Shown here: positions 1,351 to 14,138 of the stretch, one piece after another | Numbering within the stretch: position 1 is the first letter of the stretch | Layout: every line of letters starts with the position of its first letter | The notes under the pieces: generated by a model | The model's database searches: none | What the model saw: the letters and a program-made list of their open reading frames with translations, nothing else | What the model was told of the DNA's origin: nothing | Source: Chloroflexota bacterium | GTDB taxonomy: Bacteria; Chloroflexota; Anaerolineae; Aggregatilineales; Phototrophicaceae | DNA length: 32,766 nt | Reading direction: 5' to 3' | Assembly (NCBI GenBank): GCA_013388735.1 | Contig: JACAES010000144.1 | Location: 1 to 32,766, forward strand | Program-made: the position numbers and the translations under genes

Positions 1351-2517
1351 ATGATTCCGATTGATGTACCCCTGACGACTGCCTACCTGAAGGAAATGGT
1401 TCAGATCAATTCGATCAACCCCGGCCTTTCTCAGGGCGGGGCGGGTGAAGGCGCAGTCGCGGGTTGGCTTTCTCGCACCTGTAAAGAATTGGGATTGGAC
1501 GTTCGGTTGCAGGAAACCGCGCCGGGACGCTCCAACGTGCTGGCGCGCTGGCCGGGCAGCGGCGGCGGTAAAAGCCTGCTGCTGACCGGGCATACCGACG
1601 TTGTTGGCGTCGAAAATATGACCGGCAACCCGTTCGATGCGCGCGTTGAAAACGGACGCCTGTACGGGCGCGGCGCGCTGGACATGAAAGGTGGGCTGGC
1701 GTCCATCCTGGGCGCGGTGGCGGCGCTGCGCGCGATGGCCTTCCAGCCGGCAGGCGATCTGTGGCTGGGTTTTGTCACCGATGAGGAGTACAAGAGCAGC
1801 GGGACGGAAATGATGGTTCAGGAAATCCGCCCGGATGCCGCCATCCTCACCGAACCGACCGGCCTGCAAATCTGCATCGCCCACAAAGGTTTCGCCTGGC
1901 TGTCTTTAAACACGATTGGCAGGTCGGCGCATGGCAGCCTGTATAACGCGGGCGTGGACGCTATTGTCAATATGGGCCGGCTGCTGGCGCGCCTGGAATG
2001 CCTGGAACATGATCGCCTGCCGGGGCGCGAACATCCCCTGCTGGGGCGGTCTTCCGTTCATGCCAGCACCATCACCGGCGGCGTGGGCTGGAGTACCTAC
2101 CCCGACCGCTGCGAACTGCGAATCGAACACCGCCTGCTGCCGGACGAAAAAGCCGAATCTACGCTGGCATGGTGGCGCGAAACGCTGGCGGAACTGGCTG
2201 CCGCCGACCCACAGTTCCGGGCCGAAGTGCAGCTTGATTTTGCCCGCCCCGGTTATGAGATCGCGCCGGACGCGCCCATCGTGCGCGCGCTGGACGGCGC
2301 TTACAGCCGGACGACCGGAGAAGCGCCGATTTATATGGGGATGCCTGCCTGGCTGGATTCGGCTATCCTGGGGCGCGAAGGCATTCCGACCGTGATCTTT
2401 GGACCCGGCGGCGAAGGCGCGCACGCAGCGGTGGAATACGTGAACCTGGACGAAGTGTTCCGCTGCGCGGCAGTGCTGGCGGAAGCAGCGACAGGCTGGA
2501 CGGGCGCTGCTTCCTGA
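1351..2517 (+). CDS. M20-family metallopeptidase / deacylase (ArgE-DapE type)
   Basis: A predicted zinc-dependent amidohydrolase of the M20 family, 388 residues with this start. Metal-site motifs are in order: LTGHTDVV (His-x-Asp), GRGALDMKGG (bridging Asp), TDEEYKSSGTE (catalytic Glu-Glu), TEPTG, and a C-terminal His in GEGAHAAVEYVNLDE. The middle holds the lid/dimerisation domain. Relatives include acetylornithine deacetylase, succinyl-diaminopimelate desuccinylase and carboxypeptidases, and the sequence does not decide between them. A TTG at 1339 is in frame, but AGGGGG (1332-1337) ends one base before it. The same motif is 13 bp before ATG 1351, so the ATG is preferred. No arginine or lysine genes are nearby. 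Confidence 0.9.
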   Translation: MIPIDVPLTTAYLKEMVQINSINPGLSQGGAGEGAVAGWLSRTCKELGLDVRLQETAPGRSNVLARWPGSGGGKSLLLTGHTDVVGVENMTGNPFDARVENGRLYGRGALDMKGGLASILGAVAALRAMAFQPAGDLWLGFVTDEEYKSSGTEMMVQEIRPDAAILTEPTGLQICIAHKGFAWLSLNTIGRSAHGSLYNAGVDAIVNMGRLLARLECLEHDRLPGREHPLLGRSSVHASTITGGVGWSTYPDRCELRIEHRLLPDEKAESTLAWWRETLAELAAADPQFRAEVQLDFARPGYEIAPDAPIVRALDGAYSRTTGEAPIYMGMPAWLDSAILGREGIPTVIFGPGGEGAHAAVEYVNLDEVFRCAAVLAEAATGWTGAAS

Positions 2518-2539
2518 ACGGATTTGAGTTTTTAACGGA

Positions 2540-2561
2540 AAGGGCAGGATGCCCTGCCCTT
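2540..2561. terminator. Hairpin between convergent genes, possible terminator
   Basis: Arms AAGGGCAGG (2540-2548) and CCTGCCCTT (2553-2561) form a perfect 9-bp stem with a 4-nt loop. It sits between the end of the M20 gene and the stop of the convergent Cys-rich gene. Neither side has a clean U-tract, so factor-independent termination is only suggested. Confidence 0.5.
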
Positions 2562-2569
2562 GAAGTGTG

Positions 2570-2857
2570 TCAGACAACCGGTTCTTTGAGCGGCTTGCGG
2601 TAAATCGGCACGGCGAAATCCACGAAATAGGCCCATCCTTCGCCCGCCAGCAGGCGGCGCTGGCTGCTGTCCAGTTTCAGCACCGTATCATTATCGCCGG
2701 AATGCAGTTCAATCGTCAGTATATCGCTGCCGTCGTCTTCCAGTTCCTCAAAACAGCGCCGTTCGTAACCCATCGGATACTGTAGAAAACGGCCCAGGCA
2801 CCGCTCGCAAAAGGCGAGGTGTGCGTCGCACAGATCACGATTAATCTTCACCCGCAT
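2570..2857 (-). CDS. Small Cys-containing protein, possible metal binder
   Basis: A 95-residue protein of unknown function. The N-terminal part reads RVKINRDLC followed by AFCERCLGRF, with cysteines at 10, 17, 20 and 35. The opening resembles the first cysteine segment of ferredoxins, but the spacing is not a standard 4Fe-4S pattern. A zinc or iron-sulfur site is therefore only possible. The C-terminal half is acidic and has no cysteines. There is no signal peptide or membrane segment. GAGGGG lies 8 nt before the ATG, which supports this start. It converges on the M20 gene and is expressed separately from the downstream secreted-protein pair. Confidence 0.7.
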   Translation of the reverse strand: MRVKINRDLCDAHLAFCERCLGRFLQYPMGYERRCFEELEDDGSDILTIELHSGDNDTVLKLDSSQRRLLAGEGWAYFVDFAVPIYRKPLKEPVV

Positions 2858-12069: not shown

Positions 12070-13002
12070 CTAGGTCGTCCCCATCTCACGTTTGACCGTT
12101 TGCAGCAGCGTATCGGCGCGGAGCTGCGCCAGCGCGTAACACGGCCCGCCCATGCGTTCGGCCAGCTTGCTTGCCAGTCCCTGGTCGAAGGCCACGTGTT
12201 CCATGTTGATCGTCACCGTTTTGATCTTCTCTTCTTTAATCAGATCGGCGATGCGGTGGGCTTCCTCCTGGGGCGGCAGGCTGCTCATCGAAACGTTGCC
12301 CGCGCCGTCGGTCAGCAAAATCAGCAGCGGCAAGACATCGGGATGCAGCGCCTTCTCCCGCTTGAGGGTATCGTAAGCCAGCAGCAGCCCGGCGGAGAGA
12401 GGCGTTTTGCCGCCGACCGGGATGCTTTGCAGCGCCTTTTTCGCCAGCACGACCGAGTTGGTCGGCGGCAGCACCATGCTGGCGCGGTCTTTCTGGAACA
12501 CGATCAGCCCCACCCGGTCACGGCGTTGGTAGGCGTCCGTCAGCAGGGACATAATCGCGCCTTTGGTAGCCTGCATTCGCTCGCTGACGGCCATGCTCCA
12601 CGAGGCATCCACCACAAACAGGATTAAGTTAGCCGTGCGGCGCACTCGGATTTTGCGCTGGAGGTCATTTTTCTGGATGGCGTAAGCCATGCCGCTTTCC
12701 GCCAGTTGTTTTGTCCGGCGGCGCTGGTAGGGCGCGGCAGCCCGGAGCGTGGCATCGAAGGCGATGTCGTTGGTTTTGCCGTTGGCGGGGCGCGCCTGGA
12801 TATATCGTCCGCGCTTGCGGTCGGTGCGGGTGCGGGAACGCCGACCGGCCTGCTGGCGCGTCAGCCGGTCAAGCGTGGTTTGCAGCTTGCGGGGAGCGAA
12901 CTGTGCGCCGGTTTCGACCTTCTGCCCGCCTTCCCACCAGTAGGCATCATGGTTATCGAACACGTTCTGGGGCGTCGGCGTGGTCTGGCCGAAGTCCGGC
13001 AT
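12070..13002 (-). CDS. VWA-domain protein, chelatase subunit D-like
   Basis: A 310-residue protein with a basic, Arg/Lys-rich N-terminal region (1-125) and a von Willebrand A domain (about 126-305). The metal-ion-dependent adhesion site is complete: VVDASWSM (from Asp132), GGKTPLS and LLTDGAG. The basic linker plus VWA match the C-terminal part of magnesium/cobalt chelatase subunit D and of the single-chain AAA+-VWA chelatase-like proteins of actinobacteria. It starts 20 nt after the stop of the AAA+ gene, but its ribosome site is poor (AGGA only about 2 nt from the ATG). With one extra A, or a -1 slip, in the A9 run at 13035-13043, the upstream frame reads straight into it, so it may also be made as the C-terminal half of a 689-residue fusion. 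Confidence 0.88.
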   Translation of the reverse strand: MPDFGQTTPTPQNVFDNHDAYWWEGGQKVETGAQFAPRKLQTTLDRLTRQQAGRRSRTRTDRKRGRYIQARPANGKTNDIAFDATLRAAAPYQRRRTKQLAESGMAYAIQKNDLQRKIRVRRTANLILFVVDASWSMAVSERMQATKGAIMSLLTDAYQRRDRVGLIVFQKDRASMVLPPTNSVVLAKKALQSIPVGGKTPLSAGLLLAYDTLKREKALHPDVLPLLILLTDGAGNVSMSSLPPQEEAHRIADLIKEEKIKTVTINMEHVAFDQGLASKLAERMGGPCYALAQLRADTLLQTVKREMGTT

Positions 13003-13022
13003 TTCCTGTTCGGTTTCACCGG

Positions 13023-14138
13023 CTAACTGCTGGCTTTTTTTTTAACGGGTGTCTGTTCGTCGCTGGGGGCGGGTTCGTTCACCTCGTCACCTTCGCCCCA
13101 CTCGGAGGCGATCTGCTCCATCTGTTCTTCGATGGCGGTGATGCTCATCTGCGAGTCGGCGAACGGGCCGCGCTTCAGCCGGTGCGGGATCGCCAGTTCG
13201 GCGGCCATCAGAATATCCGCATTGTTAACATGCGTGCGGGCTTCAAAAGCCGCCTGGGCGCGCGCCGTTTTTAAGATCACCAGGTCGGCGCGGTGGCCGT
13301 CTATGTGCAGGTTGCTGGTGATGGCGGCAATCGTAAACAGGTCGCGCCGCGTGTACGTCACCTGGTCTACCAGTTCGCGCGCGGCGGCGATGCGATCAGA
13401 CAACTCCTGTTCCGCCGTTGCCCACTCGTGGCGGAAGCCTTCCGGGTCGGCTTCGTAGGCGATATGCCGCTCCAGAATCTCCATGCGTTCGGCGGCGTCG
13501 GTGATGCCGCGCACTTCCACCGACAGCGCAAAGCGGTCGAGAAGCTGCGGGCGCAGGTCGCCTTCTTCGGGGTTCATCGTGCCGATGAGGATGAAACGCG
13601 CCGGATGCGCGAAGCTGATGCCTTCCCGCTCGACCACGTTGACACCCATCGCCGCCGAGTCCAGCAGCAGGTCTACCACATGGTCATCCAGCAGGTTAAC
13701 TTCATCCACGTACAGGATGCCCCGATTGGCCGCCGCCAGCACGCCGGGGTCGAAGTGACGTTCGCCCCGCTGGATGGCTTTTTCGATGTCCAGCGTACCC
13801 ACCACCCGGTCTTCGGTCGCGCTCACCGGCAGGTCAATAAAGCGGGTCTTCCGGCGGGCAATCGTCAGCGGCTCTCCCCGTTCTTTACGCGCGCGCACCT
13901 CGTCCGACCAGGTTTCGGGGTGGGCAGGGTCGTCACCGAAGGGCGATTCGGCAATCGTGTCAATTTCCGGCAGCAGCGCCGCCAGCGCCCGCGCGGCGGT
14001 GGATTTGCCCGTCCCGCGCTCGCCGCGAATCAGCAAACCGCCGATTCGCATATCAATTGCATTGAGAATCAGCGCACGTTTCATGCGCTCCTGGCCGACA
14101 ATCGCCGTGAAGGGATAAACGGGGGGTCGTCTGCTCAT
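13023..14138 (-). CDS. AAA+ ATPase, magnesium/cobalt chelatase subunit I-like
   Basis: A 371-residue AAA+ ATPase of the chelatase (MoxR/BchI) clade. It has YPFTAIVGQERMKRAL, Walker A GERGTGKST, the chelatase-type insert with LPVSATEDRVVGTLD, Walker B GILYVDEVNLLDDHVVDLLL, sensor 1 in ARFILIGTMNPEEGDLRPQLLDRF and an arginine-finger region. Family members remodel a metal chelatase or activate partners together with a VWA protein. No porphyrin or cobalamin genes, and no large chelatase subunit (BchH/CobN), are in the window, so the biosynthetic role is unproven. The C-terminus is acidic, then TPVKKKASS encoded over an A9 run. The gene has its own consensus promoter. Confidence 0.9.
   Translation of the reverse strand: MSRRPPVYPFTAIVGQERMKRALILNAIDMRIGGLLIRGERGTGKSTAARALAALLPEIDTIAESPFGDDPAHPETWSDEVRARKERGEPLTIARRKTRFIDLPVSATEDRVVGTLDIEKAIQRGERHFDPGVLAAANRGILYVDEVNLLDDHVVDLLLDSAAMGVNVVEREGISFAHPARFILIGTMNPEEGDLRPQLLDRFALSVEVRGITDAAERMEILERHIAYEADPEGFRHEWATAEQELSDRIAAARELVDQVTYTRRDLFTIAAITSNLHIDGHRADLVILKTARAQAAFEARTHVNNADILMAAELAIPHRLKRGPFADSQMSITAIEEQMEQIASEWGEGDEVNEPAPSDEQTPVKKKASS
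13035..13043 (-). other. A9 homopolymer at the AAA+/VWA junction, possible slippage site
   Basis: On the coding (minus) strand the last codons of the ATPase contain nine consecutive A. In frame 0 the gene stops three codons later. Inserting one A, or a ribosomal -1 shift on the run, gives Lys-Lys-Lys-Ser-Gln-Gln-Leu-Ala-Gly-Glu-Thr-Glu-Gln-Glu-Met-Pro and continues without a stop through the VWA gene. This can be translated directly from the sequence. Whether it is used in the cell, or marks a one-base deletion or sequencing error, is not known. Confidence 0.6.

Follow-up and report, generated by a model that had tools for sequence, protein, structure and literature searches.

CobNST cobaltochelatase and ChlIDH Mg-chelatase are built on the same architecture, in which an AAA+ I subunit is paired with an AAA+-VWA D subunit, and both also have a large subunit (CobN or ChlH). 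A recoded gene of this type, fs-chlD (frameshifted chlD, the "magnesium chelatase" recoding cluster), was found by Antonov et al. in 2013 (PMC3711429) and is also discussed in PMC5009743. For chelatase cassettes from other species placed in E. coli, shift efficiencies of 63%, 40%, and 10% were measured for runs of 11, 9, and 7 A's, respectively; the 40% value was read out at the protein level and does not tell transcriptional from ribosomal events (PMC3711429). The same study offers a direction rule: shifts that all go one way point to the ribosome, and mixed directions point to transcription (PMC3711429). Kuznetsov et al. (2022) reported fs-chlD in Chloroflexi, including Anaerolineaceae without the large subunit, and a separate ChlI-like ATPase also occurs in some Anaerolineaceae that carry fs-chlD (PMC9227772).

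The other close comparison is dnaX, a single gene with two ATPase-containing products that are made by transcriptional slippage at a 9-base run in Thermus thermophilus and by ribosomal frameshifting in E. coli. The E. coli frameshift site has a hairpin. Runs of 9 A's or T's slip efficiently in vivo, and Thermus dnaX makes use of one (PMC5009743). We propose below that chlD resembles dnaX in using both mechanisms in different lineages, although the two belong to different protein families and the product that would need the slip in our locus is the long form instead of the short one.

Here, we describe a chelatase-like locus from a member of the Chloroflexota (order Aggregatilineales), contained in a 32,766-nt stretch of DNA that was analyzed as a whole and is called the window. 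The gene is fs-chlD, an arrangement already published from Chloroflexi, and shares with it a zero-frame ChlI-like AAA+ domain, a VWA domain in the -1 frame, and a poly-A slip site where the two overlap. As published, fs-chlD relies on ribosomal frameshifting, usually with a downstream structure, whereas the window's lineage has nine A's and mostly no clear structure. No passage in the literature covered here attributes the fs-chlD shift to slippage in transcription. Unlike CobNST and ChlIDH, the window's genome yielded no CobN/ChlH match. What our analysis adds to the published picture is the relation among run length, codon register, and structure, together with the scarcity of the large subunit across the window's relatives.

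The A9 run and its two frames

The locus lies on the minus strand and comprises an ATPase ORF followed by a VWA ORF.

14138 to 13023, minus strand: ChlI-like AAA+ ATPase in the upstream frame, 371 aa, ending in KKKASS-stop (TIGR02442 positions 1 to 343, PDB 6l8d, Walker motifs)
13043 to 13035, minus strand: predicted A9 slippage run, read in frame as AAA AAA AAA (from the sequence; the genome has two other A9 runs)
13025 to 13023, minus strand: zero-frame TAG stop, three sense codons past the run
13034 to 12070, minus strand: -1-frame continuation past the run, the linker and VWA part of the 689-aa fusion, with MIDAS motif DASWS (from the frame count)
13002 to 12070, minus strand: VWA ORF of 310 aa when counted from the first ATG, with separate initiation improbable (TIGR02442 positions 385 to 640, PDB 2x31)

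The two ORFs are halves of one family, as TIGR02442 ("putative cobaltochelatase"; 641 positions) covers them in turn, with E values of 1.6e-145 on the ATPase and 6.1e-78 on the VWA ORF. The structural matches agree with the division into I and D parts: 6l8d is the Mg-chelatase subunit ChlI (E = 5.3e-107), and 2x31 is the 60-kDa D subunit of Mg-chelatase (E = 9.4e-21). The ATPase has a Walker A motif (GERGTGKST) and a Walker B motif (ILYVDE). All 180 homologues keep the Walker A pattern in a widened form, a narrower first pattern having matched 45 of them, and the MIDAS pattern D.S.S is kept in all 177 homologues of testable length.

On the plus strand, the run is exactly nine T's. The 3' end of the ATPase ORF reads GTT AAA AAA AAA GCC AGC AGT TAG, and the slippery heptamer A_AAA_AAA is present in frame within the run. 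Relative to the ATPase, the VWA part is read in the -1 frame, which is open only from the run onward. Because the T preceding the run and the first two A's form TAA in the -1 frame, the two frames overlap by just 19 nt. One added A joins the 365 codons upstream of the run to 324 codons from the run on, giving 689 aa. These coordinates confirmed what an earlier note on this DNA had claimed, namely, that the ATPase gene ends in nine A's and that a -1 shift or an extra A opens an uninterrupted frame into the VWA gene, for a protein of 689 residues.

Such a run is rare in this DNA. By count, it is the sole run of 8 to 11 A's or T's in the window, where dinucleotide frequencies predict about 0.12 runs of at least nine. 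The genome (4,271,592 bases) contains three A9 runs, including the one at the chelatase-like junction. Judged by eye, the other two fall outside likely coding sequence; one adjoins a terminator-like inverted repeat, and the other sits in the leader of an ORF resembling an RRM RNA-binding protein.

We hypothesized that this junction is a programmed recoding site. Unslipped expression would give the 371-aa ChlI-like ATPase. A slip inserting a single A, or a -1 slip of the ribosome, would give a 689-aa AAA+-linker-VWA protein resembling a ChlD subunit. Since both products would contain the same ATPase, a mixed motor is possible, and its I:D ratio may be set by the frequency of slippage. Judging from sequence comparison, it is very likely that the locus yields both the short ATPase and the long fusion. 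With good, if somewhat lower, confidence, we hold to the explanation as a whole, in which a single gene of the fs-chlD type would make two proteins through programmed slippage at the A9 run.

Conservation across the Chloroflexota

To characterize the junction in relatives, we compared homologous loci from the order, class, and phylum of the window. The order set consists of 58 loci with both halves of the gene, that is, the 62 fetched (L001 and L004 to L064) minus L061 to L064. The ATPase was matched in 110 of 251 genomes of the phylum sample (at 1e-80) and in 303 of 346 genomes of the class sample (at 1e-100). Loci were not chosen at random: all 62 matches listed for the order were taken, and the phylum and class loci were those returned plus 20 and 60, respectively, spread over families. 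The sampled loci are related and were picked to spread families, so that the counts given below are not independent. Of 192 loci entered, 12 were removed (8 same-place duplicates; L062, L064, and L104, in which the VWA match was absent; and L061, which had the wrong layout), leaving 180 distinct junctions; L002, L003, L114, L115, and L116 to L135 were kept outside this input. Among the matches listed, relatives in named records were mostly Chloroflexota; many carry Anaerolineae in the title, and the nearer ones include Aggregatilineales.

Aligning homologues from related genomes, as the earlier note had proposed, showed that both the run and the layout are conserved. Within the order, 52 of 58 junctions have exactly nine A's, 57 have at least eight, and 53 have the two-frame layout with the VWA part in the -1 frame. 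The exceptions are four loci with A8 (L038, L043, L046, and L059), two fused genes (L040 with A10 and L057 with A9), two +1 splits (L054 and L059), and one locus at a contig end that has no run (L060). Across the phylum, the 180 junctions comprise 142 split in the -1 direction, 4 split in the +1 direction, and 34 fused genes; those with a run of at least seven A's number 141, 2, and 24, respectively. The run lengths of the 142 are A9 (107 loci), A7 (22), A8 (7), A10 (5), and A3 (1). Separate genes lacking a homopolymer at the junction, one of the two outcomes that the note had named as counting against slippage, are not the rule among the homologues, as only 1 of these 142 loci lacks a run of at least seven. 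Elsewhere in the same genes, long runs of A are scarce: the longest never exceeds 6 over the ATPase's first 960 nt (180 homologues) and, over 800 nt of VWA sequence, reaches 7 in 12 of 177 cases. Outside the run, AAG makes up 51% of the lysine codons of these ATPases, yet the junction run stays all A. The conserved A9 run and -1 layout support the note's suggestion that a single locus may produce the ATPase by itself as well as fused to the VWA part.

Two simpler explanations have to be weighed against this evidence. The layout could be a sequencing or assembly error, or a one-base deletion as the note allowed, with the true gene fused across A10; homopolymers are error-prone, and fused members with A10 do exist (7 of 180). 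The same A9 run and -1 layout, however, recur in dozens of separately assembled genomes, including the 107 split loci with A9. Among the 141 split -1 loci whose run has at least seven A's, 63 have a zero-frame stop codon that starts exactly 9 nt past it. Moreover, 57 further loci (the best 80 matches minus 23 already in the set) were all split, 56 in the -1 direction and 1 in the +1 direction; the MAGs named Anaerolinea in this set carry A9. We therefore reject an error, which is scarcely credible given this recurrence. It is also highly improbable that the locus consists of two ordinary genes for I and D subunits, with the VWA protein translated from its own ATG and the run incidental. An ATG is present at 13002, and some start codon occurs in the searched interval of 88 of the 142 split -1 loci (ATG in 52). 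Yet a Shine-Dalgarno-like 5-mer precedes a usable VWA start at only 3 of the 142, which bears out the impression that the VWA ATG has a poor ribosome site and leads us to reject separate initiation of the VWA ORF. By eye, the ATG itself has been replaced in several relatives (e.g., L009 and L013 to L016), and the run is conserved far beyond chance. Reading these loci as one recoded gene would remove a likely misannotation, whether as two genes or as a frameshift error, for a large group of bacteria.

Run length, register, and downstream structure

If the long protein is made by slippage, the sequence around the run may carry the mark of the machinery that slips. We scored structure downstream of the run as the lower of two shuffle z-scores, taken in 40- and 70-nt windows, and called values below -2.5 strong. 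We settled on this score only once a first analysis, made on 96 loci with a single 60-nt window, had been seen; there A7 stood out (mean z, -2.05; 3 of 9 under -2), A8 did not (-0.64; 0 of 6), and the means of the A9 groups were -0.6 to 0.0. With the two-window score, strong structure was found among split -1 loci in 17 of 22 with A7, 4 of 7 with A8, 17 of 107 with A9, and 0 of 5 with A10, compared to 6.1% of control windows. Means over clusters were -2.68, -3.32, -1.14, and -0.71, respectively, against -0.64 for the control. Short-run and long-run clusters differed in structure (10 and 40 entries, a cluster holding two run lengths entering once per run length; P = 1.4e-4), and the long-run cluster means were slightly below the control (P = 0.018). 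In the 57 further loci from the best 80 matches, for which the statistic had been fixed beforehand, strong structure was found in 3 of 3 with A7, 2 of 3 with A8, 3 of 39 with A9, and, for A10, in 2 of 11 split -1 loci and in the single split +1 locus.

Many of the A7 and A8 hairpins are long stems that begin a few nucleotides past the run. RNAalifold placed stems at this distance in three of the four A7/A8 clusters with at least three members. It found no consensus structure in the A9 groups, a weak null since MAFFT aligns the linkers poorly and no structure was returned either for A7 cluster 40, in which two hairpin types are mixed. Some A7 loci are without a hairpin (L193, L197, and L212 score above -1). 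The pseudoknot-free fold downstream of the run in the window itself had z-scores of -0.66 and -0.95 when computed directly, neither of them significant, and -2.28 as the two-window minimum. One locus, L245, combines a +1 split, an A10 run, and strong downstream structure (score, -4.5), its direction being opposite to that of nearly all others.

Codon register varied along with run length. The run was always in phase 2 for A7 (22 loci in 5 clusters) and always in phase 1 for A8 (7 loci in 5 clusters), and it occurred in all three phases for A9 (64, 28, and 15 loci). A short run with a fixed register and a hairpin fits -1 frameshifting by the ribosome, whereas a long run with a free register and mostly no hairpin fits slippage by RNA polymerase. 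From this pattern, we suggest that the A7 and A8 lineages probably slip at the ribosome, where the hairpin would aid the shift. Provided that both products are made, we lean toward RNA polymerase as the machinery that would slip on the A9 run in the window's lineage.

Fused members of the family offer a further view of the site. A run of at least seven A's is retained by 24 of the 34 fused genes, and in 17 of these 24 a stop occurs in the -1 frame within 6 codons, compared to 30% of control positions in linkers and 17.5% in the core. Slippage in such genes would yield the short form. Fused chlD members with early off-frame stops have the same layout as Thermus dnaX, in which the long form is encoded in the genome (PMC5009743). 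Six fused loci (L106, L107, L146, L148, L153, and L155) have A8 or A9 in the linker and early stops in one or both of the other frames.

The main competing reading of the A9 run is that the shift is purely ribosomal, a -1 frameshift at A_AAA_AAA as published for fs-chlD, with nine A's merely offering more positions for it. Several observations speak for it. An in-frame heptamer is found in every run length and phase of the 141 split -1 loci, and A9 always holds A_AAA_AAR, so the same site would be usable there. Published cassette efficiency climbs with run length (PMC3711429), and 17 of the 107 A9 loci do have strong structure. Of the 143 split loci that have a run, 141 shift in the -1 direction, which under the direction rule also leans toward the ribosome unless RNA polymerase slips chiefly by inserting A's, as it does at Thermus dnaX. 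On the other side, A9 loci mostly have none of the downstream structure typical of A7 and A8, their register floats, and fused members, in which the polarity is swapped, often keep early stops in the alternative frame. On balance, we consider a purely ribosomal shift at A9 unlikely, though a serious contender. Far less plausible is phase variation at the DNA level, in which the run would flip between A9 and A10 within a population and so convert a split gene into a fused one and back. Some relatives do differ by one A: L163 is fused with A10 and its relatives L164 and L208 are split with A9, as are L169 and L172 relative to the A10 fusion L170. One-A differences of this kind are what one would expect of a nearly neutral frame polarity, or of mutation or misreading of the run. 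Against phase variation, split A9 loci number 107 and fused A10 loci only 7, the product looks like a cytosolic motor rather than a surface antigen, and the hairpins of the short-run lineages would be left unexplained. We therefore retain polymerase slippage at A9 as the favored reading for the window's lineage. With run length, codon register, and hairpin trading off while the proteins stay similar, these genes are suited to a direct comparative test of whether recoding is transcriptional or ribosomal.

Client and genomic context

Despite its family name, the motor is seldom accompanied by a chelatase large subunit. The ATPase is present in 59 of the 61 genomes in the set of relatives (at an E value of 1e-90; own genome included), and CobN/ChlH in only 2 of the 61. 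A search of the window's own genome for CobN/ChlH (PF02514) returned no matches; this genome is 94% complete, and a control search was positive in 5 of 14 genomes. In the phylum sample, CobN/ChlH was found in 43 of 251 genomes. An AAA+/VWA motor kept by nearly all of these relatives, almost always without the subunit for which it is named, raises a question already posed in PMC9227772. Because the genome gave no CobN/ChlH match, the large subunit of a Co- or Mg-chelatase would not be the motor's client, and it is unlikely that the motor of the window's lineage is the known three-subunit enzyme. The likeliest role, as predicted from the sequences, is that of a client-remodeling motor with one ATPase domain common to its two subunits, the ratio of which would be set by slippage. 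In the two genomes of the order that have the large subunit (G056, locus L063; and G037, locus L064), extra copies of the chelatase ATPase adjoin CobN/ChlH, apart from the gene with the A run.

Taken together, these comparisons suggest a broader proposal, to which we give about even odds. As with dnaX, lineages of a single phylum may have exchanged RNA polymerase slippage at a bare A9 run and ribosomal frameshifting at A7 or A8 with a hairpin, and in the window's lineage the I/D motor may have left tetrapyrrole metal insertion to serve some client kept by nearly every genome.

We compared the window with 20 regions, each 20 kb long, of which 14 come from the order. Among clusters present in at least three regions, none was a neighbor kept directly beside the gene in the order. 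In the window, a HAMP/HisKA sensor histidine kinase (12060 to 10540, minus strand) starts 9 nt past the VWA stop and may be cotranscribed with the chelatase-like gene; a histidine kinase lies directly 3' of the gene in the window only and in 0 of the 20 other regions. A protein that by eye looks like an S1-domain protein adjoins the gene in 5 of the 20 regions, all from distant lineages (L130, L131, and L133 to L135). Elsewhere in the window's genome, there is a solo ChlI-like ATPase with 39% identity (L002, positions 1417 to 2580, minus strand), which by eye adjoins a thioesterase-like ORF.
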